This document shows positions 6,985 through 55,496 of a DNA stretch of 64,000 nt, piece after piece (the stretch's first letter is position 1; each line of letters opens with the position of its first letter). Both the position numbers and the translations under genes were made by a program. Source of the stretch: Calditrichota bacterium (GTDB lineage Bacteria; CLD3); contig QQUF01000045.1 in the NCBI GenBank assembly GCA_008501735.1, positions 101,957 through 165,956 on the forward strand. Reading direction: 5' to 3'. The notes below the pieces were generated by a model that was not told the origin of the DNA, did no database searches, and worked only from the letters and a program-made list of their open reading frames with translations.

Positions 6985-7389
6985 ATGAAAACCTTTTTAA
7001 TTTATTCAATCGCATTTTTTCAAGTAATTACTTTCTCTTTAATTTTCGACGTTAAAGTCTCTGAGACTTCAACACATTTTTATGAATTAGTTTTGAATGA
7101 AGAATTGATTAACGAAGAGTTGAAAGAAAACAGAATAACTCCTAAAATTGATATTTATGTGGGAAAACTTAAAAAAGGAAGTCAGTCTCTTTTAAAAGAT
7201 GCAGAGTTTAACAAGGGCTTTCTTTCAGAATTAGTAAGAACCGGAAATGAAGTTTCAGAAGTAACAATTCTTGTCAAACACGAAAAAAGAATCCTCAAAA
7301 AAATATTAGTTCCAGCGATAGGAAACGGACAAATTTCAAAATTTGACATCTTTTCAAATACTTTATGGGTCTGTTTTTTGGACAAGTAA
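6985..7389 (+). CDS. Hypothetical secreted/membrane-anchored protein
   Basis: ORF with hydrophobic N-terminus; ATG at 6985 preceded by AGGAT is preferred over GTG at 6952. Confidence 0.55.
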   Translation: MKTFLIYSIAFFQVITFSLIFDVKVSETSTHFYELVLNEELINEELKENRITPKIDIYVGKLKKGSQSLLKDAEFNKGFLSELVRTGNEVSEVTILVKHEKRILKKILVPAIGNGQISKFDIFSNTLWVCFLDK

Positions 7390-7484
7390 ATTTCAATTTT
7401 TTCAGTTTGGATTTTCAATTTGTTTTCAAAATTGATTTAGGTTAATTTTACTCAATTCTTAACTAACCTACTTTCGAGGACAAA

Positions 7485-8861
7485 ATGAAAAAAATCTACT
7501 CTTTTTTAACTCTTGCCTTTTTATGTTTTGGAGTTTATTCAAACTCATTCGCTCTTCCAGGTGACACAACTTACGTTACAACATTCGACGAAGAATTTCA
7601 CAATTGGGCTACACCTCACGACTCAGTTTTTGTTCTTCCAAGCACAAGTGGAAAAATTTTTAGTAAAGTTACACTCTTTTACACAATTGCTTGCCCATAC
7701 GCAACTCCTGGAGCAGAATGTGATCCTTGGGATAGAACAGGTTACTTAGGTTTGTTCACAAATGACACAACTTACTACGAAGTTGCAAGAATTATTACAC
7801 CTTACAGTATTAGTCAATCGCAATTTAATGGACCAGGTTCTTGTACTTGGGAAATTGATGTTACTGATTACCAAACACTTTTGAGTGATTCACTAAAAAT
7901 GAGAACCAAAATCGAATCTTGGATTGGTGGTGAAAGAGGCTGGATTGTTACAACAGAATTTCAATTTATTGAAGCAGAAGTTGGTGAAGTAGTTAGCTTT
8001 CCTTACAAAGTCGAAAACCTCTGGCAGAATTATTCTGTAGTTTACGGTGATCCAGCAGTTCCAATCGATAGCACTTTAGCTCCAATTGATGTAATGATTG
8101 ATATAAATGCTGATTCTGTGAAAATGAGAGTTATGACAACAGGACACGGACAAGGTGGTTACGACAATGCAGCAGAATTTTATAATTCTTCACACTACTT
8201 TTTTATGAATGGAAACATTAAGGCTCACAACTTTTGGCGAAGTAATTGCCCTCAAAACACTTGTTCTCCTCAAGGTGGAAATTGGACTCCGGGAAGATTT
8301 GGTTGGTGTCCTGGAGACAAAGTTGATCCATTGGTTTGGGACGTTACAAGCTTAGTAACTCCTGGACAAACTGCAACTGCTGAATACAGACCTGACTTAT
8401 TAGTCCCTTATGAAAATGTTTGTCGTCCAAATAATCCAAATTGTGTTACTGACCCAAATTTTTGCCCAGATTGTAACTACAATTCTACTGGTCATACTCA
8501 ACCAATTTATTCAATTCAAAGCCAATTAGTGTTTTACCAAAATGTTACTGTTGTTGGAGTAGAAGAAAATTCAAATCCAAAGCCTGAAAATTTCATTTTA
8601 CTTTCAAATTACCCGAACCCATTCAACCCAAGCACTACAATTAATTATGAATTACAAATTATGAATTACGAATTTGGTTCAATTCAAATCTTTAATCTTT
8701 TAGGCGAAAAAGTTCGTGAGTTTGAAATTTCTAATTCCAAAGGTTCAGTAGTTTGGGACGGGACAAATTCTGACGGAAAACAAGTGAGTTCAGGAATTTA
8801 TCTTTACACTTTGAAAGCAGGAAAATTCACTAAAAGCGAAAAGATGTTACTTTTAAAATGA
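7485..8861 (+). CDS. Peptide-N-glycosidase F-like protein with T9SS C-terminal sorting domain
   Basis: Signal peptide; CDPWDRTGYLGLF, GHGQGGYDNAAEFYNSSHYFFMNG, GRFGWCPGDKVDPLVWDVT; C-terminal NYPNPFNPSTTINYEL...GTNSDGKQVSSGIYLYTLKAG. Confidence 0.75.
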   Translation: MKKIYSFLTLAFLCFGVYSNSFALPGDTTYVTTFDEEFHNWATPHDSVFVLPSTSGKIFSKVTLFYTIACPYATPGAECDPWDRTGYLGLFTNDTTYYEVARIITPYSISQSQFNGPGSCTWEIDVTDYQTLLSDSLKMRTKIESWIGGERGWIVTTEFQFIEAEVGEVVSFPYKVENLWQNYSVVYGDPAVPIDSTLAPIDVMIDINADSVKMRVMTTGHGQGGYDNAAEFYNSSHYFFMNGNIKAHNFWRSNCPQNTCSPQGGNWTPGRFGWCPGDKVDPLVWDVTSLVTPGQTATAEYRPDLLVPYENVCRPNNPNCVTDPNFCPDCNYNSTGHTQPIYSIQSQLVFYQNVTVVGVEENSNPKPENFILLSNYPNPFNPSTTINYELQIMNYEFGSIQIFNLLGEKVREFEISNSKGSVVWDGTNSDGKQVSSGIYLYTLKAGKFTKSEKMLLLK

Positions 8862-39985: not shown

Positions 39986-40005
39986 TTTTTACCTCACTTA
40001 AGAAA

Positions 40006-40039
40006 TAGCCTTCAAGCAACTAAAATCACTTGAAGGCTA
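40006..40039 (-). terminator. Hairpin downstream of 40047..40601 gene
   Basis: TAGCCTTCAAG ... CTTGAAGGCTA perfect 11-bp stem followed on minus strand by TTTC. Confidence 0.6.
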
Positions 40040-40046
40040 GGTTTTC

Positions 40047-40601
40047 TCATAAATTAAAACCTGTGGTAAAATTGTAGTGTAAACCGTCTCTCGAACGAGA
40101 AACTGCGAAGTTAAACGGAAAATACATTCCGTCCATTTTCAAACTGTAACCTGTTGCAAAGACAAAAGCAGGTTTAATGTCTTTTACACTTTTGTCTTTC
40201 ATCGTAAGGTTTGGACCAAAAGCAAACTCAAAACCTGATGCAGTTCTAATTCCAAGAAGCCAAGAAACGCTTGGAATGAGAAGTGATTGGTCAAGCCCAC
40301 CAACTAACGGAATGAATTCTGTCAAAGCGGTTACTCCATTATTTGTTGAAAAAAATCTTTTTTCAAATTGATAACCAAATTGAACAATCAAAGGATTCGC
40401 ATCGAATTTATTTTTAAGTCGATTTTTATCCTCTCCAGTTACTAACGTTAATCCAACTCTTGGACCTGATAGATTTAAAACTTTAACTCCTTTTTTATCT
40501 CCCCAATTTCTATTGGGAAGTTCACTTTGGGCGAACCCAACTTTGCTTCCAAACAAACAGAATGATAGAATTGCCGTTGCTATCAAATTTTTTGTTTTCA
40601 T
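40047..40601 (-). CDS. Hypothetical outer-membrane protein
   Basis: Signal peptide; beta-strand rich; ends in YNFTTGFNL. Confidence 0.6.
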   Translation of the reverse strand: MKTKNLIATAILSFCLFGSKVGFAQSELPNRNWGDKKGVKVLNLSGPRVGLTLVTGEDKNRLKNKFDANPLIVQFGYQFEKRFFSTNNGVTALTEFIPLVGGLDQSLLIPSVSWLLGIRTASGFEFAFGPNLTMKDKSVKDIKPAFVFATGYSLKMDGMYFPFNFAVSRSRDGLHYNFTTGFNL

Positions 40602-40637
40602 TTTAAATTTTCCTTTTGATTTAATGCTTAAATTAAA

Positions 40638-40677
40638 TTGACGTTGTCAACTTAAAAACAAAACTTGACCTTGTCAA
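40638..40677. promoter_or_regulatory. Tandem palindromic operator-like sites for the adjacent TetR regulator
   Basis: TTGACGTTGTCAA (40638..40650) and TTGACCTTGTCAA (40665..40677), 27 bp between centres, in the divergent intergenic region. Confidence 0.65.
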
Positions 40678-40734
40678 TATTTTTTTTACCTTTATCAAAA
40701 ATTTTCTTAAAATGTTTAACAAAAAGTTAGAAAA

Positions 40735-41337
40735 ATGCCCAAAAAACAAAACTACCATCACGGAAATTTACGGCAGCAATTATTAACTAAAGCAGATGAG
40801 ATGATTTCATCTGGTGGACTTGACAGCCTTACAATGCGAGAAATTGGAAAACAAATAGGTGTTTCAAGAACTGCACCTTACAATCATTTTAAGGACAAGT
40901 CTGCTCTACTCTCGGCAGTTGCGACGGAATATTTTTTGGATTTGAAAAATAGGCTTAGTGCAATTGACGCAACTGATTACGAAGATGCAATGGATTATTT
41001 TAAAGCAATGAGCAACACCTATTTAGAATTTGCACTTGAAAATCCTGAACGTTATCAATTAATGTTTGGAAAAAATTCTTTGAGAAGAAGTGATTACCCT
41101 GAACTTAAAATTGCTGCTGACGAAGCATTTTATCAATTGATTTTGATAATTGAATTTTTACAAAGATATAATATTCTGAAGGAAGGAAATTCTCGTTCTT
41201 ACGCTTACATTGCTTGGGCAAGTTTTCACGGACTTTCATCGTTAATTATTGACAAGCAAATTGAGCATCAAGTTGATTCTAAAATTTTAACAGATTTTAC
41301 AATCCAAACTTTGATTGAAGGAATGAAAAAAGATTAG
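40735..41337 (+). CDS. TetR/AcrR family transcriptional regulator
   Basis: YHHGNLRQQLLTKADEMISSGGLDSLTMREIGKQIGVSRTAPYNHFKDKSALLSAVA. Confidence 0.92.
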   Translation: MPKKQNYHHGNLRQQLLTKADEMISSGGLDSLTMREIGKQIGVSRTAPYNHFKDKSALLSAVATEYFLDLKNRLSAIDATDYEDAMDYFKAMSNTYLEFALENPERYQLMFGKNSLRRSDYPELKIAADEAFYQLILIIEFLQRYNILKEGNSRSYAYIAWASFHGLSSLIIDKQIEHQVDSKILTDFTIQTLIEGMKKD

Positions 41338-42065
41338 GCATTTTTATTTTTAAATTTCCGCGAAAAATAAATCGAATTTGCTGCTTCTAAAGGTCCGATT
41401 AACCAATAAATCATTCCTGCCCATTTCGAATCTTCGATTTCTCCAAAGAAGGCGATGCAAACGGACAAAAAAGAAATAACTACACAAATCAAAAAGGCAT
41501 TAATTCCTAATTTGGTTTGTGAAATTTCGTATTGATTTAATTCTAACTTCTCTTTTAAAGTCAGAACGTGAAAATACATTAAGGTAAGAACTGTCGCTAT
41601 TGCAAAAAAACCACTCGAATAAATTATCATTAATGTTGGAACTTGCTCGCCGACGATTGAAATATTTACACTAATGTTAAATCCCAGAATTTCCTTGAGC
41701 AAAAGCGAATCAATCAAAAGTGTAGTCAAAAATTTTAACGGATAAATGTAGAACAGAACGAAAAAGAGAAGAAAGCCATTTAAAATTATCATTTTGGTAT
41801 CCGAAACACCATAATGCCGAAAGAACTTGTAATGCCTAAACCAAATCGCAAAAATTACTAAGAATGTTACACCAAAAGAGACAAAGCCTTCCATAATCAA
41901 TTGTAATTCATTGAATGTTTTCGGCACTTCAAGCGAAACAATCAACAATGCAATTGCGATTGCAAAGACAGCATCACTTAATCCTTCAACTCTGGAAACT
42001 TCATTCCCTCTCCAACGAAAATCATTTTTGCCAAATTCATTTTTGATTGCTTGTTGACGAATCAT
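41334..42065 (-). CDS. TMEM175-family (DUF1211) predicted potassium channel
   Basis: EVSRVEGLSDAVFAIAIALLIVSLEVP; six-TM-like layout. Confidence 0.8.
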   Translation of the reverse strand: MIRQQAIKNEFGKNDFRWRGNEVSRVEGLSDAVFAIAIALLIVSLEVPKTFNELQLIMEGFVSFGVTFLVIFAIWFRHYKFFRHYGVSDTKMIILNGFLLFFVLFYIYPLKFLTTLLIDSLLLKEILGFNISVNISIVGEQVPTLMIIYSSGFFAIATVLTLMYFHVLTLKEKLELNQYEISQTKLGINAFLICVVISFLSVCIAFFGEIEDSKWAGMIYWLIGPLEAANSIYFSRKFKNKNA

Positions 42066-45000
42066 TTTAACAAGACCATTTTTTTCACAATTTTAAAATC
42101 CTGACTTTCAAGTCTGTAAAAATAAATTCCGCTTGAAACAGGTTTTTCTAAAGAATTTGTGCCATTCCAAACAACTGTTCCTTTTTGTTTTTTTATCTCA
42201 AACTCTTTTACTGTTTCACCTAAAATATTAAAAATTGTCAACTTACTTTTTTCGTAATTCCTAACTCGTAACTCGTAATTAATCGTAGTTGTTGGATTAA
42301 ATGGATTTGGAAAATTTTGACTTAAACTGAATTTCTTTGGTGTTAAGTCTTTTTCTTCAATACTCGTAGGGAAATCATTAATTTCACCCGGAGTTCCGAA
42401 GGGGCTCAAACTTATCGACCAATTTTCAGGTAAAGAATTATCGCTCAAAGGGTCTTTTAAAGACAATGTTTTTCCAGTTCCGTTAGCTTCAGAAGACCAA
42501 AGTGAATCAGGCTCAAATTTCACCGAATCCACTAAAGTTCCAAACAAATCGTAAAGTTTAATTTCATCGCCGTTGCTACTTAAACCAAAATTAAACTCGC
42601 CTACAAAATTTTGAACACTTGGATTAAAATTCACAAAATCAGTAGTATCTCTACAAATGACAAGAAATTCTTGTGGAGGTAAAAATGTAGAATCAGGAAA
42701 AACAAAAACATTCCCTGTGTCAGAATCAGTGATTTTCCAAGAACTCAAATTTACTGTTTCAGAGCTAGAGTTGAAAACTTCAAACCAATCTTCTGTATCG
42801 AAATTCGGTTCAGAGTTATAATTTATTTCGTTGATTACAATTGAATCACTTACCGTTGTAGAATCAATTGCAAAAATTGCATATTTCAAGATATTGTCAG
42901 TAATTGTAAAATTGATTTCTAAAGAATCATTAAAAGTTGGTCCAGTCCAACCAACAAAAGTATAACCTTCTTTTGGTATTAATTTCAATTTCATTTTTGC
43001 ACCGTTGAAGAAAAGTCCACTCAATGCTCCATTTTCCATTGCTCTGTCATTAAAAATCAAGTCCGCTGCCTCTGACGGTGCAACTTGAAAATAAATATTT
43101 GAAGTAGTGCCAGAAAGTCCAAATTTATTAATCACATGATTCCGAACGTATGGATTTCTATTGTTTGCAAAAACAATCATATTTTGTATATCTGAATTCC
43201 ATTGTGAAAGACTTCCTCCATTCCAACGGCTTAAGTGGTTTTGAATCTCATAAAATATCTTGTCTTTTTTTGAGTTAATATTTGCAACCATCGAGTCTGC
43301 GACAAAAACTTTATTCAAGAGATAAGCGAATTCATTAATGAAGTAATTTTGATAATCAGAATTTTCTAAAAGCTTCCTTAAATAAAGAGTTGACCAAGGA
43401 GGATTTGGCCAACTTGGTCCATTTGGTTCAGTAGCAAAATCTAAAGTATTATTTGTATAGGAACTAAATCCAAAATCTGTATCAAATAACATCCAACGCC
43501 ATTTCCCATCTGAAGAACGTTTTCTCCACATACTTGAATTATTTCCAGGCCAATCTGTGTTATCAAAATAAATTTGAGAGATTTGGTATTGTGTAAAATT
43601 CAACAAATCAATCATTTTACTTGCTGAATCATAAACAGCACTGTCCGTGAAATTATTTGTTTCAAAATAATTTTCTAATTGATTGAAAGAATTAATACTT
43701 CCTGCTTTAACTTCACTTCCATTTTTTATTAAATCAATACTGTCTTGGCTAACTCCGTGATGGTGAAAAATATAATCTGCATTTAGTTTTTCTCGCAAAT
43801 TCAACATTCCCCAATACTGCCCATTTAAGTACAAAACTGCTGGACGAAATTTTTGTAAATCAATGTTCAAATCGTCAACAAGTGAAGTCATAACTCCATC
43901 TCGAAACATTGTATTATTCCAATCATTTCCAGAATTTCGCATCATAAAAGAGTTAAAATTTTTAATCTCAGAATCTGGAAAAATTTCATATTCAATTTCT
44001 TTTATTCCATATTCGCTTCTTGCAAAAATCGACATAGATTTTTGAGAATGCCCTCTACTCCAACCACCTGAAATTTTAATTCCACAATCTAACTCAAACC
44101 CTAAATTCCCACTTTCATCAAAAAATTCTGTGTGAGCTGGGCGTTCCCAATCTTGCCAAAAATTTGCATTAAAATAAGGATAATTCGGGTCTGCATTAGG
44201 ACCTAAAGCATAAATTCCAAAATTCTCGTCCCAAAGATTTTCAGGTGTAGTTGAAATCGAAACAACAGGCAAAGTTTTACTAACATTCATAAAGTAAGTC
44301 TTTGTAACTACTTCACTTGGTAAAAAACCTACTTCAAAACTTCTTGCTCTTAAAACTGTCGTTTGTAAAACTGAAATTGGATTTGTATAAACTTGTGAAG
44401 TATCAGTCGGTTCTGTTCCATCTAACGAGAAACGAATTACAGAATTTGGTGAATTTGAGTTTAAATTAACTGTAATCGAATTTTGGTAAAAACCATTTGG
44501 TTGCGAGAAATTAGGAACTTCTGCAAAATTTAAATAACCAGGATTTACATTCGCAGTTTCAGGAGTCGGTTGGTCAAAAATTACAAAAGTTGAATCTGCA
44601 TTCGGGAACCTACCAAATGAGAAATTGCTTGGAACTTGTCCGAAAGTTAAAGAATCAATTATTTGTCCATTTGAATCAGAAATTACTAAAAATTCACCGC
44701 CTGAACTCAAATTAAAATTCGTGTGTAAATTTGGAATTGCAAAGCTAAGAAGTGGATTTAAACCTTGTGGAACTAAAGGAGAATTCTCCATTCCAAGTAC
44801 TAAAAATGGAATCGCTGTCAAATCGGAAGAAGTTGTTGAGGCGTTATGAACTTGAATTGACAAAACATTTTGTCCTTGAACTAGAAGATTTTGAAAATTA
44901 TTCAATTTATAAACTAATGGCAAACCTCCGTTGTAAATTTCTGCTTCTCTTCCTCCATTAGATAAAGTATTAAAAGGAGGTGACAAACCGCTAATATTTT

Positions 45001-45595
45001 CTCTGGCAATTTCAACTCCGTTCAAGTAGGCGATGAAAGAATCGTCAAAATCCATAAAAAATAAAGCGAAAGTTATATTTTGTAAATCTGTAACAGTGAA
45101 TTCTTGCCTTAAGTAAACAGAAGTAACTTGCGGAATTACCGTGTTGTCATCTCCGTCTCCATAACCAACACCAGTTTGACCATTTAACCAAGAATTATCA
45201 TTAAAATTAATTTCTTTCCAAGTTACGGGAGGCTCTGAGTTTCCCACAAAATATTTACAATTATCGCCTTCATTGATTACTGTTTCCCAATGATTCGCTC
45301 CTTTAATGTCTTTTCCAGAAGCCCAAAGTAAAAAATATTCTTGCGGATTTAGAGTTTTGGAAGGGAATGTCCATTTTCCCAAATCAGTTGAGTCATCTGA
45401 AATCGAATAGTTTTGCAAATTTATTGGTATACTTCCATAATTAAATAATTCAATCCAATCAGAGGAATCTCCGTCTTCGTCAAAAATCGTTGTTGTGTTC
45501 GATGACATAAATTCATTAATCAAAATGTCTTGAGAAATTGCAAGGCTTGATAAAATGAAAATCAGAGCTTGAACTAAAGTTATTTTTTTTAGCAT
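42062..45595 (-). CDS. CotH kinase family protein with lamin-tail domains, chitobiase/BNR-like segments and T9SS CTD
   Basis: INEFMSSNTTTIFDEDGDSSDWIELFN and INEINYNSEPNFDTEDWFEVFN (LTD); ISGGWSRGHSQKSMSIFARSEYG...FMMRNSGNDWNNTMFRDGVMTSL...YLNGQYWGMLNLREKLNADYI (CotH); NFPNPFNPTTTINYEL (CTD). Confidence 0.88.
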   Translation of the reverse strand: MLKKITLVQALIFILSSLAISQDILINEFMSSNTTTIFDEDGDSSDWIELFNYGSIPINLQNYSISDDSTDLGKWTFPSKTLNPQEYFLLWASGKDIKGANHWETVINEGDNCKYFVGNSEPPVTWKEINFNDNSWLNGQTGVGYGDGDDNTVIPQVTSVYLRQEFTVTDLQNITFALFFMDFDDSFIAYLNGVEIARENISGLSPPFNTLSNGGREAEIYNGGLPLVYKLNNFQNLLVQGQNVLSIQVHNASTTSSDLTAIPFLVLGMENSPLVPQGLNPLLSFAIPNLHTNFNLSSGGEFLVISDSNGQIIDSLTFGQVPSNFSFGRFPNADSTFVIFDQPTPETANVNPGYLNFAEVPNFSQPNGFYQNSITVNLNSNSPNSVIRFSLDGTEPTDTSQVYTNPISVLQTTVLRARSFEVGFLPSEVVTKTYFMNVSKTLPVVSISTTPENLWDENFGIYALGPNADPNYPYFNANFWQDWERPAHTEFFDESGNLGFELDCGIKISGGWSRGHSQKSMSIFARSEYGIKEIEYEIFPDSEIKNFNSFMMRNSGNDWNNTMFRDGVMTSLVDDLNIDLQKFRPAVLYLNGQYWGMLNLREKLNADYIFHHHGVSQDSIDLIKNGSEVKAGSINSFNQLENYFETNNFTDSAVYDSASKMIDLLNFTQYQISQIYFDNTDWPGNNSSMWRKRSSDGKWRWMLFDTDFGFSSYTNNTLDFATEPNGPSWPNPPWSTLYLRKLLENSDYQNYFINEFAYLLNKVFVADSMVANINSKKDKIFYEIQNHLSRWNGGSLSQWNSDIQNMIVFANNRNPYVRNHVINKFGLSGTTSNIYFQVAPSEAADLIFNDRAMENGALSGLFFNGAKMKLKLIPKEGYTFVGWTGPTFNDSLEINFTITDNILKYAIFAIDSTTVSDSIVINEINYNSEPNFDTEDWFEVFNSSSETVNLSSWKITDSDTGNVFVFPDSTFLPPQEFLVICRDTTDFVNFNPSVQNFVGEFNFGLSSNGDEIKLYDLFGTLVDSVKFEPDSLWSSEANGTGKTLSLKDPLSDNSLPENWSISLSPFGTPGEINDFPTSIEEKDLTPKKFSLSQNFPNPFNPTTTINYELRVRNYEKSKLTIFNILGETVKEFEIKKQKGTVVWNGTNSLEKPVSSGIYFYRLESQDFKIVKKMVLLK

Positions 45596-46056
45596 TTTTC
45601 AAATTCCACAAAAGTAAAATTAGTGTATTCAATTTTTTCGACTTCTTTCCACTTGGTAAAATCAATTTTGGGAAAGTAAGTATCACCAACAAAACTACCT
45701 TTTATAAAAGATAGGTACATTTTTTCGACCAAATCTTGCTCAAGAGTTTGTTTATAAATTGTTGCTCCACCACAAATGAAAATGTCATTCTCAAACTGTT
45801 TTGCTTCAGTAATCGCGTCTTTTAAACTACTACAAACAGTGGCATTTTCAAAATCAATACCCAAATGACTAACAACGAAATTTCTCGTCGTTTTTGTGTC
45901 TCCACTAAAAATTTGAAAAGATTTTCGCCCAAAGATTACTGATTGGTTTTCTACAATCTTCAGAAAGTGTTCGTATTCTTCTGGGAAATCCCAAGGCAAT
46001 CCATTCCCTGAGCCAATTAAAAAATTTTCATCAAAGGCTGAAATTAATTTTATCAT
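45589..46056 (-). CDS. folA: Dihydrofolate reductase
   Basis: LISAFDENFLIGSGNGLPWDFPEEYEHF; VIFGRKSFQIF; IFICGGATIYKQTL. Confidence 0.9.
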   Translation of the reverse strand: MIKLISAFDENFLIGSGNGLPWDFPEEYEHFLKIVENQSVIFGRKSFQIFSGDTKTTRNFVVSHLGIDFENATVCSSLKDAITEAKQFENDIFICGGATIYKQTLEQDLVEKMYLSFIKGSFVGDTYFPKIDFTKWKEVEKIEYTNFTFVEFEKC

Positions 46057-46057
46057 T

Positions 46058-46435
46058 TTAGTCTAATTCATCAATTTCGTTTGATAAAAGATTATCTCGA
46101 ATAATTGCCAAAATTCCAATTTGTGGAACGATTAGGTATTTTTTGCCTTCAAATTCTATCTCAATTGCCTCTCTTTTAAGGAAAATTGCATAATCTCCAA
46201 TTCTGACTTGAAGCGGAATGTAACGAGGTTCATTTCCAGAATTTGCCCAAGGTTCTGATGAATCATTATTAGGAATTACGTAACCAGGACCAACATTTAC
46301 AATCGTTCCACTTTGCACATTTTCTTTTTCAGAAATTCCCGGAGGAAGGTAAAGCCCTGCATTTGTCTTATTTTTTTCGGAGTCAGGTTCAACTAAAACT
46401 CTATCGCCAATAATTATTATTTCTTTATTCTTCAT
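46058..46435 (-). CDS. Divergent GroES-family co-chaperonin
   Basis: IIGDRVLVEPDSEKNKTNAGLYLPPG...VQSGTIVNVGPG...IGDYAIFLKREAIEIEFEGKKYLIVPQIGILAII. Confidence 0.8.
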   Translation of the reverse strand: MKNKEIIIIGDRVLVEPDSEKNKTNAGLYLPPGISEKENVQSGTIVNVGPGYVIPNNDSSEPWANSGNEPRYIPLQVRIGDYAIFLKREAIEIEFEGKKYLIVPQIGILAIIRDNLLSNEIDELD

Positions 46436-46596
46436 TTTAAACCTATTTTTTGAAGTTAGTTTTTCAAATTTAACAATTTTTTGAACCTCAAAATTGAAAG
46501 ATTTAAAATTTATTTAACAAAACTGACATACAGTCGTCAAAAGTATTTTGCATCTTAGCCAAAACAATAGAAAATCTAAACTTAGGAGAATTTCAA

Positions 46597-47679
46597 ATGT
46601 CTAAAACTTTAGTAATGATTGGAACTCAAAAAGGTGCTTTTCACCTTTGGTCAGATGAGAAACGTGAAAAGTGGGAAGTCGAAGGACCAATTTTAAAAGG
46701 TTGGAAAGTCCAAGATATTGTTCTTGATCAAAGAACAGAACCAACAATGTACGCTTCCGTTGGACATTACGTTTACGGACCAACAGTTCACATCTCTAAG
46801 AATTTGGGCAAAAATTGGGAAGTCGTCGAAAGTTCTCCTCGTTACGAAAAAGATTCTAAGAAAAAGCTAAATGGAATTTGGTGCATTGTTCCTGGTCGTG
46901 AAAGTGAACCCGAGACTATTTTTGCAGGAGTTGACGAAGCAGGACTTTTTGTTTCAAAAGACAAAGGTTACACTTGGGAAGAATTCAAAGGACTTTCAAA
47001 TCACAAAACAAGTAACGAATGGTATCCAGGTTTAGGAGGACTTTGTTGTCATTCAATTGCTCTTGACCCAAAAAATGAAAAAAGAATGTGGGTTGGAATT
47101 TCAGCAGTTGGAACTTTTTATACAGAAGACGGAGGCAAAACTTGGCAAACTCAAAACGAAGGTGTTACAAAAGTCATTGAGTGTAAAGAACATAAAGACA
47201 TTGGATTTTGCGTTCACCACCTTTTAGTTGACTCCAAAAATACAAATCGCCTTTTCCAACAAAATCACAGAGGAGTTTACCGAAGTGATAATGGTGGGAA
47301 ATCTTGGACGAAAATCGAAAACGGACTACCAACAAGTTTTGGCTTTCCAATGGCAATTTCACCGCAAAATTCAGACACACTTTTTGTAATTCCTCTCGAA
47401 AGTGATGAGTACAGAATGACCAAAGACGGAAAATTATCTGTTTATAGAACTACAAACGCAGGCAAAACTTGGGAAGAGAAAACTCAAGGTTTACCAAAGA
47501 ACTCTTTTGTTACAGTTTTGCGTCAATCTTTAAATACTGACAACCACAAGGAAACAGGAGTTTATTTTGGAACTGCAAACGGGCAAATGTTCTGTAGTAA
47601 AGACAATGGCGAAAGTTGGTCACAAATGCCAGGGATTTACCCAAGAATTCTAAGTGTAAACACAGCGATTATCGAATGA
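46597..47679 (+). CDS. WD40/YVTN/BNR-type beta-propeller protein (sialidase/sortilin-like), cytosolic
   Basis: Repeated SKDKGYTWEEF, TEDGGKTWQT, SDNGGKSWTKI, TTNAGKTWEE, SKDNGESWSQM; no signal peptide. Confidence 0.85.
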   Translation: MSKTLVMIGTQKGAFHLWSDEKREKWEVEGPILKGWKVQDIVLDQRTEPTMYASVGHYVYGPTVHISKNLGKNWEVVESSPRYEKDSKKKLNGIWCIVPGRESEPETIFAGVDEAGLFVSKDKGYTWEEFKGLSNHKTSNEWYPGLGGLCCHSIALDPKNEKRMWVGISAVGTFYTEDGGKTWQTQNEGVTKVIECKEHKDIGFCVHHLLVDSKNTNRLFQQNHRGVYRSDNGGKSWTKIENGLPTSFGFPMAISPQNSDTLFVIPLESDEYRMTKDGKLSVYRTTNAGKTWEEKTQGLPKNSFVTVLRQSLNTDNHKETGVYFGTANGQMFCSKDNGESWSQMPGIYPRILSVNTAIIE

Positions 47680-47972
47680 AAACTTTAGACAAAAAAATCA
47701 AAATTCCAGTAAAGATTCCTGGGATTCTAACAAACTGTACAAATGGAGCAAAAACTATTTTTGTTTCTGCAAACAAATTGAACGAATGTTTCTCAGAACT
47801 TTATAATAAATTCCCCCTTTTGAAAATGCACATTTTAGATGAAAATGAAAACTTGAGACCTCACATTCTTTTTTTCTACAACCAAGAGAATGTGAGTTGG
47901 CTTGATTCGCTTGAAATTGATTTGAAAGAAGGAGACAAAATTCAAATCATTCAAGCTGTTTCAGGGGGATAA
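47676..47972 (+). CDS. MoaD/ThiS-family ubiquitin-like small protein
   Basis: IKIPVKIPGILTNCTNG...HILDENENLRPHILFFYNQENV...LKEGDKIQIIQAVSGG ending in GG; ATG overlaps upstream TGA (ATGA). Confidence 0.8.
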   Translation: MKTLDKKIKIPVKIPGILTNCTNGAKTIFVSANKLNECFSELYNKFPLLKMHILDENENLRPHILFFYNQENVSWLDSLEIDLKEGDKIQIIQAVSGG

Positions 47973-47978
47973 ATTTTC

Positions 47979-48656
47979 TTAGCTCTTAATTCTTTTAAGA
48001 GCTTCTCTTTTGCTTAAACCCGAAAGAATTTCCTCGTGAGTTTTTACGAATTCGATAACCCAATTTGAATCTGAGTAAGAGTATTCACGTAATACCCAAC
48101 CGATTGCTTTACGGATAAAAAATTCTTTTTCGTGAGCTAATTTGAGAATAATTTTTGAAAGAAATTCTGTGTTAGTTTCTTCTCTGTGCTTAAGGTGAGC
48201 AAGAATTGAAGCTCTTCTTACCCAAAAATTTTTGGATTCTGACCAAACTTCTAAAGTTTTTTCAAGATTTCTGTTCTTGAGAATTAATGGACTAATTAAT
48301 TTGCTACAAATCCAATCTAGAGTGTCCCAATTCGTAGCTGTAAAAACTAACTTTTCAAAAAATGGAAATGCTTCGAGGGTAATGAATTTCTTATTCGATT
48401 CAGCAACATCAAGTGCAAAGTACATTTCTTCCCTACTCTTTCCTTCCCAAAGTTCTAAAATGATTTTTTGGTATTCTTCTTGGGTTTGAATTTTGAAGTT
48501 CTTTTTAACTTCTTTGAAGATTTGTCTTCTTTTCGGCGAATTAACTCCGTAAAAGAACTGCTCAGTTTTCATATAGGCTTGCATTCTTTTTGCATTTTCG
48601 ATGTCTTGAGCATCTTTAAGCCGAGTTAGCAATTCTTTTACGAAATTATATTTCAT
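47979..48656 (-). CDS. AlkD-like DNA alkylation repair protein
   Basis: AYMKTEQFFYGVNSPKRRQIFKEV; NWDTLDWICSKLISPL; SKNFWVRRASILAHLKH; FFIRKAIGWVLREYS. Confidence 0.88.
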   Translation of the reverse strand: MKYNFVKELLTRLKDAQDIENAKRMQAYMKTEQFFYGVNSPKRRQIFKEVKKNFKIQTQEEYQKIILELWEGKSREEMYFALDVAESNKKFITLEAFPFFEKLVFTATNWDTLDWICSKLISPLILKNRNLEKTLEVWSESKNFWVRRASILAHLKHREETNTEFLSKIILKLAHEKEFFIRKAIGWVLREYSYSDSNWVIEFVKTHEEILSGLSKREALKRIKS

Positions 48657-48663
48657 TGGAAAT

Positions 48664-49476
48664 TCATTTTAAAATCACATTACGAATTTCAGTAGTAATT
48701 GCTAAAATTGATTTAATTTCTTTCTGTGAGAAATTATAATTCACAGGTTTGTTAATCAATTTATCAATTTTAGGCAAAGCTTCGTAAATCACTCGAACTT
48801 CTTTTTTATTTTTAATATCTTTATCTAAAGTGTCCAAATGATAAGTCAAATAACGTGAAAAATCTCTATCAGCAATAATATCTTTTGCATTGTCTGAAAA
48901 GTTTTTGTCTAACGATTTTGCCACAATATGCAGCCCTTCAATCCAACCTGATGTCATTGCTAAAACTGCGTCATTTTTCATATCCTCTTCATAAAGTCGT
49001 TCTGAAATTGCATCTTTTAGTTCATAGATTTGATTTTCAACATTTTCCCACTTACCTTCACGAACAGCACTTGTCATTTCAGAATATTTGCTCAAGATTG
49101 TATTTTCAACTCCCAACCTATCGGCATAATCGTGAATATTTGTAGCATATTCTGTGAAAATATTTGTGTTTTTATTTACCACACTTGTCAAAGAACCAGC
49201 AACAGCAAGTCCAAGATTTAATGAAGTTTTATAATCAGAAGTTGAAGTATTTAAAATCGGTTTTGGCATTTCAACAGGAATTCCTAATGAACTAAGTTTA
49301 AAGAGAATTTCAATTTCAACTGATTCAAATATTTTTGCATTTTTAGTAGGGTTTAAACCTAATTCTTCAACTTTTGCTGCATCAGCTGAAATACTTTTTT
49401 TCTTGTCAGAATTACCAGCAACTAAAACTGTGCATAATCCTGCGATTAATAAAATTGATGTATTTTTTAAAAACAT
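48664..49476 (-). CDS. Hypothetical secreted alpha-helical protein
   Basis: Signal-peptide-like MFLKNTSILLIAGLCTVLVAG; ATG at 49476 with GGAG upstream preferred over TTG at 49488. Confidence 0.6.
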   Translation of the reverse strand: MFLKNTSILLIAGLCTVLVAGNSDKKKSISADAAKVEELGLNPTKNAKIFESVEIEILFKLSSLGIPVEMPKPILNTSTSDYKTSLNLGLAVAGSLTSVVNKNTNIFTEYATNIHDYADRLGVENTILSKYSEMTSAVREGKWENVENQIYELKDAISERLYEEDMKNDAVLAMTSGWIEGLHIVAKSLDKNFSDNAKDIIADRDFSRYLTYHLDTLDKDIKNKKEVRVIYEALPKIDKLINKPVNYNFSQKEIKSILAITTEIRNVILK

Positions 49477-49491
49477 TTTTTTCTCCAAGGT

Positions 49492-49929
49492 TTACTCTTC
49501 GCCTGTAATATTTACTCTTAAAAATCCACGTCCATTAAAATTAATGAAAATTGTAGAACCATCTAAACAACCATCAATTGTTCCTAAGACAGGATATTCA
49601 GCATACTTCCCAACTTTTCCAGAAGAATAAATTTTCAAATTTAATCTTTGTAAGCCAGGAGGGCTTTTATGTGTTACAACATATTGAGGTCCAATAGTAT
49701 AATTTTCATAACCATTCCAATTTTTCCCACTTGGCTCACACCAACCAGCAGAGTAAAAAAGCCTTTCATCTGTTGCATTTTCAACACAAACATAGTAAAT
49801 GTTTCTATCTTTTTCTTCCTCCTCAACATCTGTTGAATCTCTGTCAGAAGCAATGTTTTGAAAACTCATCATTAACATTGCACTGAAAATTAAAAATAGA
49901 AAGCGATAAGTTTTTTTAAAGACAAACAT
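49492..49929 (-). CDS. Hypothetical secreted protein
   Basis: Hydrophobic N-terminus; 16-bp gap to downstream ORF. Confidence 0.5.
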   Translation of the reverse strand: MFVFKKTYRFLFLIFSAMLMMSFQNIASDRDSTDVEEEEKDRNIYYVCVENATDERLFYSAGWCEPSGKNWNGYENYTIGPQYVVTHKSPPGLQRLNLKIYSSGKVGKYAEYPVLGTIDGCLDGSTIFINFNGRGFLRVNITGEE

Positions 49930-49951
49930 ACTTAAAACCTTAATTTAGTTT

Positions 49952-52900
49952 TCATTTTTGGAGTAATTTAAAGAAATTGATTTGTAAAAATTTAGTAAAA
50001 AAGATTTTATGGTTAAGTATTTTTTTTATTTTCAAAATAAGCATTGTATAAAAAAGGCAGGATAAAATCATAAATATTAGAACTAAAAAATTAAAATAAA
50101 TTGTTTCAATTTCGAAATAAGTCTTACCTATAAGAATTCCTTTGTGTTTAGAATAATAAGGTGCATTAAAAATAACATTTTTAACAACTTTTTCACCACT
50201 TTTAATCTCAAAAATTTTATATGGTATAAATTTCTTCTGCTCCTTTAAAAGGAAAAAATTATTTAAAAAACTTGCATAATTTCCTGTTCCACTCATCACA
50301 GTTTGTTCAATTACTTCATTTTTATAAAGTGAATTTGGGTACTCTACATCTATTTGTGCTTTATTCTTTTTTAGGCTTTTACGTTTTTCCCGAAGCTGTT
50401 CTATTGCACTTACGTCATTACCAACTTCTCTAATTTCTTGAGTTACTTTTTTAATTTCTTCTTTGCTCTTTTGAATTGCAGCATCTCTTGAATTTAAAGT
50501 TGCTTGAGCAACAATTAACGATTCGTGAGCCCATCTTGAAGGAATAAATTGACAAAATTCAGGAATCATTTGGTCAGCATTCAAAAATAGTTGTTTACTC
50601 ATATCTTCAAATTTAATTAATGCACCACCAAGAATGATTTGTGGAATCAAAATTAATGGAATCCAATTAACTGCAGTTTCTGAGGACTTGACAAACGAAG
50701 AGAGTAAAAGCCCAAAAGCTATACCAACAAGTGATGACAAAAACAAATAAACAAAGATTAGTAAAAAATTTCCGTGAATCTCTAATATTAGACTTCCAAT
50801 TGCCATAAAAATAAAAACTTGTACAAAAGAAATCACTGATAAAACTATAAACTTTGCTAAAACATAATCAGGAATTTTTAGCTTAATTTTACTTTCCATA
50901 TTAAAAATCGCAATTTCGCTAACAATATCTCTAACACTGTTTGTTAGTCCAAGAAAAATTGAAAAAACAACACCAATAAAAAAGTAAAGTGAAATCAATT
51001 TGTTTTCATAAAATGAATACTCTTCAACGTCATCAGGTGTGAAATACAAAATGAAAGCAAGTAAAGTTGCAATTAGAATTGGAGCAGAAACAGAAACTCC
51101 TAAATTGCTTTTATTTTGCAATTTGACAAGAAAATTCCTCTTTATAAGCATTTGAAGTTGACTCAAATGTCCTTTTAAAGTTAATCTTGGAACACTTAAA
51201 GTGCCTTCTTTGGAAGAAATATTTTTCGGCTCGGATTTTTCACTTAAACCTGTTGTTTCAATAAATCTTTTTTGCCAAAACTCATTTGAAAATATTCTTT
51301 CACCATTTTCTTTTTTTGCTTCCAGAATTTCAAAAATTTGTTCAGGTTGAGTTGTTCCGCATTCAGGACAAACAGAAGGGTCAGAATCTTTAATTACATC
51401 TTTCATATAATCTAAGCACTCGAAAATTCCACCTGTAAAAACTAATTTTCCACCTTTATCCATAAAAACAATCTTATCAAACATCTGAAAAATCTTTGAA
51501 CCTGGTTGGTGAAGCGAAGCAATTACAATTTTACCCATATCAGAAAGATTTCGTAAAAATGAAACGATTTCTTCTGAATCTTTCGATGAAAGCCCGGAAG
51601 TTGGCTCATCTAAGAAAATTATGTGTGGATCAAAAATTAATTCTTTAGCAATGTTCACGCGTTTCCTTTCTCCACCACTTAAACCTTTTTGTTCAAGACT
51701 ACCAATAATCTCATTTTTTTTATCATAAAGTTTAAGACGCTCCAGAACAATGTCTATCTTCTTTTCTAAAATCTCATCACCTACAAAAGGCTCTCTAAGT
51801 TTAGCAGTAAAATAAAGATTTTGATAAACAGTCAATTCTGACATTAACATATCGTCTTGTGGAACATAGCCGAAAATCGAACGGTAAAATTCAATGTTTT
51901 TTGTAAGCGGTTCATCGTCGTAAAAGATGTAGCCTGAATTTTGAATTTTCGAACCATAAATAAGCTCCAAAATTGTACTCTTCCCAGCTCCACTTGGACC
52001 CAAAATGCAAACCATCTCATTAGATTCAGCAGCAAAAGAGACGTTGTCAATTATTTTTAAATTCTTAATTGAGTAAAATAAATTGTCAACATACATTGTG
52101 TGAAAATCAATCTTTTGAAAACGTATTGAGTCTTTCAAAAAATCAATTATGATTTTATAATCACCTACTGTTAACTCGTCGTGTATCTCTAAAACAGTTT
52201 CAGAATTGATGAGTTGTTTGTTCACAAATGTTTTGTACTGAGCCGCTGTTGCAATTGGCTGAACGGTGTAACGAATGCTTCCGTCTTTTTTCTTGAACTT
52301 TACAATTTTTGCGTGTTGTGGTGCAATGTTATCAGAATTGATTTTTAATAGGCATTTTGAACTGCTTCCAATCAAAACATTTTCAATATCTAAAGTGTAA
52401 GACATTGACCTGTCTTTTAACAGGCTTTTGATGTAATTACCCTTTTGTGTCTCTAAAAATAATTGGAAATTTTCTTTTGTCAATGAAACCAAAGTGCAAT
52501 CAGTAACACAAGTTACATTTGCGGTTCTTACAGAATCTTCAAGCAAAGCTAATTCGCCAAAGAAATCTCCTGCATACAAATTTCCATAGTGAACATATTG
52601 TCCGTCTTCATCTTTTGATGAAACTTTAACTTCACCAGAGACTATGATGTAAAATTTATCAGCGACTTCATTTTGTAAGACAATTTTGGTATCACTTTTA
52701 TAAAATTCTATTTCCATTGAAGAAATCACATCTTCATTTTCAATACTAAATCCAGGAATGTTCAGAACCTTAAAAAAATTGTAAGCTCCGAAAGGAATTC
52801 GATACAAAAAAAGATTGTCTTTAATGTGTTGACTTGATTTAAATAGTTTTTGTAATTCAGATTTATGTATCTTAAAAAAGATTGCCATTTCAGACATTAC

Positions 52901-53182
52901 AATTACTGTATAAGGATATTTTTCTTCAAATTCATTCCAACCACAATGACCGTTTAACTCAATTAATTCACTTACAACTTTACCTTCACTTGAAAGTAAT
53001 AAAGCACTGCCGTGATAAAGAAAAAATAAAAAATCAGATTCTTGTTCAGGTTCACAAACCATTTCGCCAAGAGGAATTTCTACAAATTCGCCTTTTTGCA
53101 TTATTGAATTTAGGTGAAGAGGGGAAATTTTGGCAAAAGCATTATGAGGTTTTAAATTTTTGTAGGAGTTTGAATTAAGCAT
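49952..53182 (-). CDS. ABCG-like ABC transporter (NBD-TMD) with N-terminal cyclic-nucleotide-binding-like and FHA-like domains
   Basis: GDFFGELALLEDSVRTANVT (cNMP); IGSSSKCLLKINSDNIAPQHAKI (FHA-like); CILGPSGAGKSTILELIYG Walker A; LSGGERKRVNIAKELIFDPHIIFLDEPTSGLSS; ABC-2 TM segments; ATG 53182 preferred over TTG 53203. Confidence 0.85.
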   Translation of the reverse strand: MLNSNSYKNLKPHNAFAKISPLHLNSIMQKGEFVEIPLGEMVCEPEQESDFLFFLYHGSALLLSSEGKVVSELIELNGHCGWNEFEEKYPYTVIVMSEMAIFFKIHKSELQKLFKSSQHIKDNLFLYRIPFGAYNFFKVLNIPGFSIENEDVISSMEIEFYKSDTKIVLQNEVADKFYIIVSGEVKVSSKDEDGQYVHYGNLYAGDFFGELALLEDSVRTANVTCVTDCTLVSLTKENFQLFLETQKGNYIKSLLKDRSMSYTLDIENVLIGSSSKCLLKINSDNIAPQHAKIVKFKKKDGSIRYTVQPIATAAQYKTFVNKQLINSETVLEIHDELTVGDYKIIIDFLKDSIRFQKIDFHTMYVDNLFYSIKNLKIIDNVSFAAESNEMVCILGPSGAGKSTILELIYGSKIQNSGYIFYDDEPLTKNIEFYRSIFGYVPQDDMLMSELTVYQNLYFTAKLREPFVGDEILEKKIDIVLERLKLYDKKNEIIGSLEQKGLSGGERKRVNIAKELIFDPHIIFLDEPTSGLSSKDSEEIVSFLRNLSDMGKIVIASLHQPGSKIFQMFDKIVFMDKGGKLVFTGGIFECLDYMKDVIKDSDPSVCPECGTTQPEQIFEILEAKKENGERIFSNEFWQKRFIETTGLSEKSEPKNISSKEGTLSVPRLTLKGHLSQLQMLIKRNFLVKLQNKSNLGVSVSAPILIATLLAFILYFTPDDVEEYSFYENKLISLYFFIGVVFSIFLGLTNSVRDIVSEIAIFNMESKIKLKIPDYVLAKFIVLSVISFVQVFIFMAIGSLILEIHGNFLLIFVYLFLSSLVGIAFGLLLSSFVKSSETAVNWIPLILIPQIILGGALIKFEDMSKQLFLNADQMIPEFCQFIPSRWAHESLIVAQATLNSRDAAIQKSKEEIKKVTQEIREVGNDVSAIEQLREKRKSLKKNKAQIDVEYPNSLYKNEVIEQTVMSGTGNYASFLNNFFLLKEQKKFIPYKIFEIKSGEKVVKNVIFNAPYYSKHKGILIGKTYFEIETIYFNFLVLIFMILSCLFYTMLILKIKKILNHKIFFTKFLQINFFKLLQK

Positions 53183-53351
53183 TGAGCAACTATTTTGATG
53201 CAATTTTTATGGAAAAGTGTTTCTAAAAAATCACACAAAATATAATTGTGTTAATTGTTTTTTCAATTTTTTAAATTTTTTATTTTATTTTGAAGCACTT
53301 GAATCGGCTAAATACATTTTTAAATACCACAAAATTGTTAGATTTTTTTGA

Positions 53352-54623
53352 ATGAATAACGAAACTAATCGTATCAAAATTTTGATGATTGATGATGAAC
53401 AATCGATTTATTTTCTAATTAAAGCATTACTCACCGAAATATCAGAAAAAGACTATGTAATTGATTGGTCTTCTTCTTTTGATGAAGGCTTTGAACTTAT
53501 GACCAATAATTCTTACGACGTTTATTTGGTTGATTTCATTTTGATTGATGGTAGAACAGGTTTGGAACTAATTAGAGAAGCAAATGAAAATGGTTGCACA
53601 AAACCAAGTATTCTACTAACTGGAATTGGTGATAGAGACATTGACATTCAGGCAATGGAAGCAGGAGCAACAGATTATATTTCTAAAAATGATTTTGATT
53701 CAAAGTACCTTGAGCGTTCAATTCGTTACTCAATAATGCAAAAAGAGAACGAAAATAAAATGATAAGATACCAAGCTGAATTGGAAAGCCTTGTTAATGA
53801 ACGTACCAAAAAACTCGAAGCAATAAATACACAGTTAAAAAAAGAGATTGAGCAAAGGAACATAATTGAAACAGATTTGAAATTGACGAACAGACAATTA
53901 CAAAAAGACTTGGATTTAGCAAGTGAACTACAACAAGCGGTTTTGCCCGAAATCAGAAACTTACCTTTTCTAAACATAGCCGCAAAATACCTTCCTTGTA
54001 GTAGTGTTTCAGGTGATGTTTACGATATTAATTTTAATCGTGAAGGAGCAATTAATATTTTTGTCGGTGATGCAACAGGACACGGAGTTGCAGCTGCGTT
54101 TATGACAATGATGGTTCAAATCGGTTTAGACAGCATTCGACAAGATACTTCTCCAAATGAAGTTCTTGATTCTTTAAACTCTTTGCTCGTTTCAAGGGAA
54201 ACTGAAAAATTTATTACAGGAGTTTACATTAGAATTACTCCTAAAGGTTTAATGTCAGCAACAAATGCAGCTCATCCTCCTTTAGTAATTCTTCCTGCAA
54301 ATGGAGAAGAAGTTGTAATTCTTCAAGAAGGTGGCTGTCCACTTGGTGCATTTCCCGAAAGCCCGATTCCTTATCCTGTCGAAACTTACCAACTCAAACA
54401 CGGTGATAAAGTTATTCTTTATACCGACGGAGTTTCTGAAACCGAAATTACAGCAACTGAACTTTTTGGAATTGAAAATACAATTGAATTTTTATCTCAA
54501 AACCGCAAATTGCCGCTCGAAGAAATTATTGATAAACTCTTGAGTCAGTTGGAAACCTATAAAAATGGCAAAAATATTACAGATGATTTAACAATTCTAT
54601 GTGTTGAATTTTTGGAAACCTAA
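53352..54623 (+). CDS. Response regulator with C-terminal PP2C/SpoIIE-type serine phosphatase
   Basis: ILMIDDEQSIYFLIKALL, VDFILIDGRTGLELI, TGIGDRDID; coiled coil; SGDVYDINFNREGAINIFVGDATGHGVAAAFMTMM; VILYTDGVSETE. Confidence 0.9.
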   Translation: MNNETNRIKILMIDDEQSIYFLIKALLTEISEKDYVIDWSSSFDEGFELMTNNSYDVYLVDFILIDGRTGLELIREANENGCTKPSILLTGIGDRDIDIQAMEAGATDYISKNDFDSKYLERSIRYSIMQKENENKMIRYQAELESLVNERTKKLEAINTQLKKEIEQRNIIETDLKLTNRQLQKDLDLASELQQAVLPEIRNLPFLNIAAKYLPCSSVSGDVYDINFNREGAINIFVGDATGHGVAAAFMTMMVQIGLDSIRQDTSPNEVLDSLNSLLVSRETEKFITGVYIRITPKGLMSATNAAHPPLVILPANGEEVVILQEGGCPLGAFPESPIPYPVETYQLKHGDKVILYTDGVSETEITATELFGIENTIEFLSQNRKLPLEEIIDKLLSQLETYKNGKNITDDLTILCVEFLET

Positions 54624-54632
54624 AACCAATAA

Positions 54633-55496
54633 ATGCTAAAAATTCTAAAATCATTCTTCGATATTCTAAAAGAAGCATTTTTTGAATGGGTTGATGACAA
54701 TGCTTCACAATTAGCTGCTGGAATTTCTTACTACACAATTTTTTCATTAGCTCCACTTTTAGTAATTACAACTTCAATAGCAGGAATTTTCTTTGGTGAA
54801 GATGCAATTCAAGGAAAACTTGTTTCTGAAATTGAAGGTTTTGTCGGTCTTCAAACTGCCAAAATTATCGAAACAATGTTAATTGGAATCGGAGAAGATT
54901 ACTCAAATATTTTTGTCGGAATTTTCGGTTTTGCACTCTTATTTTTTGGTGCCTCCAAAGCAGTAATTGAACTTGAAAATGCTTTTAACAAAATTTGGAG
55001 AGTTAAACCAAAGGAACATTCAAATATCTTTTTAGATTTGTTGATGGAAAGGCTGAATTCATTTTTAACGATTTTTCTTTCAGGTTTTTTATTACTAAGC
55101 ATTTTAATTATTAGTGCAACATTAAATTTTTTTTCCGGACTTCTCCAAGAATTACTTCCCCAAGTTAGGATTTTTTGGAAAGTATTAGAGTTTTTCGCTT
55201 CTCTCGGAATTTCAAGTTTAGTTTTTGCTACTTTGTTCAAATCAATTCCAAACGAAAAAATTGCTTGGAGCGATGTTTGGCTTGGTTCAATTTGCACTTC
55301 ACTTTTATTTTTACTAAGCAAATTCTTACTTAATCTTTACATTTCAAGTGGTTCTTTTGCAACAGTTTATGGAGCTGCAAGTTCACTAATCATTCTTTTA
55401 GTTTGGATTTACTACTCAATCCAAATCCTCTTTCTCGGTGCAGAAATTTCCTTTGTTTACTCTAAGAAATTTGGCTCGAAGAAAATGTCAGCTTAA
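54633..55496 (+). CDS. YihY/BrkB family inner membrane protein
   Basis: DDNASQLAAGISYYTIFSLAPLLVITTSIAG; FGASKAVIELENAFNKIWRVKP; ISSGSFATVYGAASSLIILLVWIYYSIQILFLGAEISFVY. Confidence 0.9.
   Translation: MLKILKSFFDILKEAFFEWVDDNASQLAAGISYYTIFSLAPLLVITTSIAGIFFGEDAIQGKLVSEIEGFVGLQTAKIIETMLIGIGEDYSNIFVGIFGFALLFFGASKAVIELENAFNKIWRVKPKEHSNIFLDLLMERLNSFLTIFLSGFLLLSILIISATLNFFSGLLQELLPQVRIFWKVLEFFASLGISSLVFATLFKSIPNEKIAWSDVWLGSICTSLLFLLSKFLLNLYISSGSFATVYGAASSLIILLVWIYYSIQILFLGAEISFVYSKKFGSKKMSA

Follow-up and report, generated by a model that had tools for sequence, protein, structure and literature searches.

A beta-propeller and a ThiS/MoaD-family protein encoded as a conserved gene pair with a possible role in sulfur transfer

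We describe two adjoining genes, one encoding an Asp-box beta-propeller and the other a small ubiquitin-like protein of the ThiS/MoaD family (the carrier), in a 64,000-nucleotide stretch of DNA (the window; G000:C24:101957-165956) within a 4.14 Mb genome. The original prediction that these proteins form a dedicated pair is strongly supported by the adjacency of their genes in 77/97 loci, the correlated divergence of the partners and the conservation of a C-terminal Gly-Gly, and we regard the partnership as near certain. Our best single guess at its purpose, to which we give an even chance, is that the propeller acts as a sulfur acceptor. Searches of open-licence PMC text for MoaD together with BNR, propeller or sialidase returned no paper on the pair, leaving room for a subscription paper, and a text search of papers on beta-grasp and ubiquitin-like proteins found no mention of it.

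The gene pair and its protein families

The overlapping, GG-ending reading frames that had been predicted were confirmed (Table 1), and the carrier terminates in AVSGG. The shared ATGA suggests translational coupling of the two genes, and the same junction is present in the majority of relatives in which the propeller comes first. No signal peptide was seen in the window propeller, which looks cytosolic.

Table 1. Features of the propeller/carrier gene pair, in window coordinates
Feature	Position	Strand	Basis or remark
AGGAG, ribosome-binding-site-like	46584..46588	+	8 nt upstream of propeller ATG; read from sequence
Asp-box (BNR) seven-bladed beta-propeller, 3b7f type, 360 aa	46597..47679	+	Pfam, PDB 3b7f_A
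ATGA start/stop overlap of propeller and carrier ORFs	47676..47679	+	Read from sequence
ThiS/MoaD-family ubiquitin-like sulfur-carrier-type protein, 98 aa	47676..47972	+	Pfam ThiS, NCBIfam, PDB
Gly-Gly codons (ggg gga) at carrier C-terminus	47964..47969	+	GG kept in 76/77 paired relatives

On sequence grounds the window carrier belongs to the ThiS/MoaD family. It matches the Pfam beta-grasp profile ThiS above the curated cut-off (1.3e-9; 38.8 bits against 22.5), its Gly-Gly is the expected site of adenylation and thiocarboxylation, and an E1-like activating enzyme is encoded in the same genome. Three further profiles were matched below their cut-offs, namely NCBIfam SAMP1 (40.6 bits; cut-off 60), NCBIfam moaD_arch and Urm1 (20.9 bits; cut-off 21.8), and the nearest solved relatives are PDB 4n6e_B (3.6e-7) and CysO of Mycobacterium tuberculosis (3dwg_C, 8.7e-6). 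To our knowledge, every known bacterial ThiS/MoaD carrier has been linked to a named product: thiamine, the molybdenum cofactor, cysteine, thio-tRNA or one of some natural products.

Among the carriers of 77 pairs, GG is the exact end of 72 and is missing from one; in the remaining four the chain continues beyond GG (GTN in L061, ER in L094, CD in L095 and a fused phosphatase domain in L081). The tails of two to three residues recall precursors that require trimming, or could be due to sequence error. The L081 protein (7110-7802, from a Brocadiia MAG) has a low-molecular-weight tyrosine phosphatase (ArsC-like) domain behind AVSGG; the GG is thereby internal and would require cleavage. In L054 (4084-4392; Nonomuraea) the GG has been lost, the carrier ends in PALA and the gene pair is still there. 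A simple rule separated 53 carriers as type A (98 residues, an RFFAC motif and a GA[MIV]AGG end) from a diverse remainder to which the window carrier belongs.

The window propeller matched the Pfam families Sortilin-Vps10 (5.7e-19) and BNR (8.6e-15), as well as the PSII_BNR model. Its sole close solved relative is PDB 3b7f_A, to which it is similar over the full length (E 3.6e-61), and it shares with this type the repeated Asp-boxes; 3b7f was also the top Foldseek match (E 1.1e-31) of a modelled relative from L085. The 3b7f structure is a structural-genomics entry titled 'putative glycosyl hydrolase', and the available text of PMC2716378 gives it seven blades and a function 'Not known'. Seven polar residues (K12, W142, H152, H207, Q222, H224 and R309 in window numbering) are invariant over 95 propellers, with the exception of a single alignment row gapped at K12, and are kept whether or not a carrier adjoins the propeller. 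By sequence, these residues are not those of the Asp-boxes and resemble a putative site.

Database labels of relatives are 'exo-alpha-sialidase' or sialidase family protein for the propeller and 'MoaD/ThiS family protein' for the carrier. A sialidase or glycosidase activity, as in current annotation, would fit these names and the weak family matches to BNR and GH74-like structures. However, both features expected of GH33 sialidases are missing from the window propeller, which has no RIP (of the FRIP motif) and no sialidase-like arginine triad among its conserved residues, the NCBIfam glycosylhydrolase model reached 75.7 bits against a cut-off of 175, and no sugar genes recur beside the propeller in relatives. 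We consider such an activity highly improbable and the sialidase label one that misdirects annotators.

Conservation of the pairing across genomes

A contig scan found at least 584 relatives of the propeller. Eighty of these loci were retained and, together with 17 taken from relatives and plasmids, gave 97 loci for examination, which are best matches to the window propeller and not a random sample. A same-strand carrier ORF adjoins the propeller in 77 of these loci. Fifteen of the other 20 genuinely lack a carrier, and in five (L047, L056, L092, L096 and L115) the contig ends too near the propeller to judge. A carrier model built from the paired partners had no match in 33 control loci from the window genome and one relative. 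The pairing is thus far beyond chance, and the gene-neighbourhood survey proposed with the original prediction found the adjacency conserved in other genomes.

Paired loci were found in at least 10 phyla (Acidobacteriota, Chloroflexota, Actinomycetota, Planctomycetota, Gemmatimonadota, Rhodothermota, Pseudomonadota, Verrucomicrobiota, Vulcanimicrobiota and Hydrogenedentota), with further examples in one Bacillota MAG and two archaeal MAGs; as placement of MAGs is fallible, phyla known from a single MAG are soft. The propeller was present in 9/9 examined genomes of the window's phylum. Gene order could be measured for 75 pairs, with the propeller first in 70, mostly at a distance of no more than 30 nt, and the carrier first in five; reversed order with retained adjacency occurs in Pseudomonas/Burkholderiales and in archaea. 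Propeller and carrier distances were correlated overall (Mantel r 0.955) and within subgroups (0.67 for type A and 0.82 for the remaining carriers; 0/2000 permutations in each case), and this correlation, to which no marker-gene correction was applied, is partly due to common descent of the host genomes.

A quick tree served solely to assign phyla and to show how the carrier-less loci are scattered. The carrier-less propellers of L050, L055, L058-L060, L062, L116 and L119 cluster in Rhodobacterales, some Chloroflexota and Streptomyces and keep the invariant residues. As these residues are kept in the 15 carrier-less loci, the job of the propeller can persist without an adjacent carrier.

No third partner was constant among 123 neighbouring genes, the commonest being glyoxalase/VOC (five) and YCII (three), numbers too small to mark a partner. 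The pair therefore resembles a module of two genes that relies on a housekeeping enzyme for activation. CysM or Mec+ (JAB) genes were absent from the window neighbours and did not recur in relatives, where one PALP match was found among the 123 neighbours. Elsewhere in the window, a 1083-aa ORF (49952-53203) looks, on inspection by eye, like an ABC transporter with its membrane part together with an FHA-like segment and two segments of the cyclic-nucleotide-binding type.

Pfam ThiS identified two proteins only in the window genome, the window carrier and a protein at C32:9597. The latter directly precedes moaE, the two spanning C32:9.6-10.3 kb, which indicates an ordinary molybdopterin-synthase pair, and this moaE is the sole one in the genome. 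With the canonical moaD-moaE at a locus of its own, the window carrier is a second carrier and not the ordinary molybdopterin synthase subunit, an identity against which the original prediction had to be checked. It might still be a spare small subunit that lies beside the propeller by chance, as it shares the ThiS/MoaD family and both MoaE and a canonical MoaD are present in the genome. Set against this, beyond the separate canonical locus, are the failure of the carrier model to match the canonical MoaD in control locus L035 and the presence of the pair in genome G025, in which no MoaE was found (this genome may be incomplete). We give a spare subunit very little credence.

Probable activation of the carrier by a MoeZ-type enzyme

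The original prediction had noted that no activating enzyme was visible. This holds within the window, where the ORFs at 40000-55000 included neither an E1 nor a thi gene, but not genome-wide: whole-genome searches placed all matches to ThiF, MoaE and other ThiS proteins outside the window, and two of these were to ThiF. One is a 379-aa ThiF+rhodanese protein of the MoeB/MoeZ type (match G000:C32:252906-253607), the single such protein in the genome. The second, a 568-aa protein on C22, was ruled out as a dedicated E1, being Cap2-like and inside a CBASS locus. That locus (L037:7886-12221 on G000:C22) encodes an oligonucleotide cyclase, the E1-E2 (Cap2-like) protein, a JAB (Cap3-like) protein, which is the sole JAB of the genome, and a 2TM/SAVED effector; it reads as a complete-looking type II CBASS.

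With one MoeZ-type E1 in the genome, this enzyme is a candidate activator of both carriers. There is a precedent in mycobacteria, in which a single MoeZR sulfurates MoaD1, MoaD2 and CysO (PMC3227635). A ThiF match was found in 25/26 propeller genomes tested, including 23/23 with a carrier-paired propeller, and most of these matches lie in an open frame of ~380-430 aa, the size expected for ThiF+rhodanese. The lone genome without an E1 (G009) has a propeller with no adjoining carrier (L060) and four other ThiS proteins. In L135 a MoeZ-type ORF lies 74 nt past the carrier stop on the same strand and matches the window-genome E1 at 4e-145; in L069 a MoeZ-type gene adjoins the propeller divergently. 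Such adjacency occurs in just two of the 77 pairs, and these two loci are the most direct indication that MoeZ may act on the carrier. Most pairs have no adjacent E1, so that it is usual for no activating enzyme to be seen beside them. The earlier hint of a missing or unusual E1 is not supported, in view of the MoeZ-type E1 of this genome, the E1 matches in the propeller genomes and the two MoeZ-type neighbours. Activation of the carrier by MoeZ is probable.

In an alternative reading, the carrier is a SAMP/Urm1-like protein modifier that MoeZ activates for conjugation to lysines, and the propeller is a target, receptor or specificity factor. The weak matches to the SAMP1 and Urm1 profiles agree with this, and Urm1-type proteins perform both sulfur transfer and conjugation according to the available text of PMC8561144. 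However, no SAMP or Urm1 profile was matched above its curated cut-off, no E2 and no JAB-type deconjugase accompany the pair, four genomes with the pair (G001, G003, G006 and G011) are without any JAB match and the only JAB of the window genome belongs to CBASS. A role as protein modifier therefore seems unlikely.

A possible sulfur-transfer role and its relation to known systems

Structure prediction of the pair, which the original prediction had proposed, was carried out with AlphaFold2 on a natural read-through fusion across the TAG between both L085 genes, with a one-residue linker, and the model was of high confidence (pLDDT 94.7, pTM 0.85). The last nine residues of the carrier had a mean of 77 in the fusion and ~77 in the carrier alone, as estimated from block means. 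As the GG tail is no better ordered in the fusion than in the carrier alone, the model lends no support to docking of the tail, which so short a linker may prevent.

In another reading, the propeller would hydrolyse or bind a ligand, and the MoaD-like protein would serve it in a structural or regulatory capacity only, with the GG tail inserted as a plug into the propeller funnel. Propellers of the same fold do bind peptides (entries of YCF48 with the D1 peptide were among the structural matches in PDB), and carrier-less propellers keep the same invariant residues. A non-catalytic partner is nevertheless doubtful in view of the unordered tail of the L085 fusion (which the one-residue linker may itself have constrained), the GG of 76/77 partners, as expected of carrier chemistry, the E1 in every tested genome with a carrier-paired propeller and the two occurrences of MoeZ beside the pair.

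In the sulfur-transfer reading that we prefer, the shared E1-rhodanese would adenylate the C-terminal glycine of the carrier and convert it to a thiocarboxylate, by analogy with the biochemistry of MoeZ, CysO and MoaD. The charged carrier might then dock on the propeller, a step with less support than activation, and the invariant Lys, Trp, His, His, Gln, His and Arg could form an acceptor site at which sulfur would be handed to a putative substrate, in the manner of MoaD to MoaE, ThiS to ThiG and CysO to CysM. That MoeZ thiocarboxylates the carrier and that the propeller is its dedicated acceptor seems to us an evenly balanced proposition. More tentatively, and with somewhat less than an even chance, the propeller may be an enzyme that accepts sulfur or uses a thiocarboxylate and has a carrier of its own, in an undescribed sulfur-transfer pathway of many bacterial phyla and some archaea. 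Several points weigh against the acceptor proposal: the unordered tail in the L085 fusion, the 15 carrier-less propellers with the same invariant residues, the loss of GG in L054, the rarity of MoeZ adjacency and the share of host ancestry in the distance correlation. In addition, we know of no sulfur-transfer chemistry for beta-propellers. If our proposal is true, a sulfur-transfer pathway has been hidden under the name exo-alpha-sialidase, and a pair this widespread, with no product assigned to it, would add a branch now missing from sulfur metabolism or from ubiquitin-like signalling in prokaryotes.

Comparison with known systems either sets the window carrier apart from the MoaD-MoaE, CysO and SAMP systems or does not establish that it belongs to them. 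For the propeller, the Ralstonia eutropha BNR protein YP_299179.1 (3b7f) is of the same type over its full length, although the available text of PMC2716378 does not connect it with any carrier. The Asp-box propellers of YCF48 and sortilin Vps10 have a related fold and were solved with bound peptides or ligands, but act in photosystem assembly or as a sorting receptor and have much lower similarity to the window propeller. Dual-function Urm1, SAMP and TtuB share with the carrier the ThiS/MoaD fold, the GG, probably activation by an E1-rhodanese and, through weak matches, the Urm1/SAMP1 profiles; they differ in that the window carrier falls under the curated cut-offs and no tRNA-thiolase partner was seen. 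In the CysO-CysM-Mec+/MoeZ system of M. tuberculosis, CysO also has a GG tail, is among the nearest solved relatives and is activated by a shared MoeZ-rhodanese (PMC3227635), and the window genome has one MoeZ-type E1; here, however, neither a cysteine synthase nor a JAB peptidase recurs beside the pair, and the partner is a propeller. The arrangement of a ubiquitin-like carrier gene adjoining the gene of an acceptor enzyme is that of MoaD-MoaE, with the propeller in the place of MoaE and the canonical pair encoded separately in the same genome.
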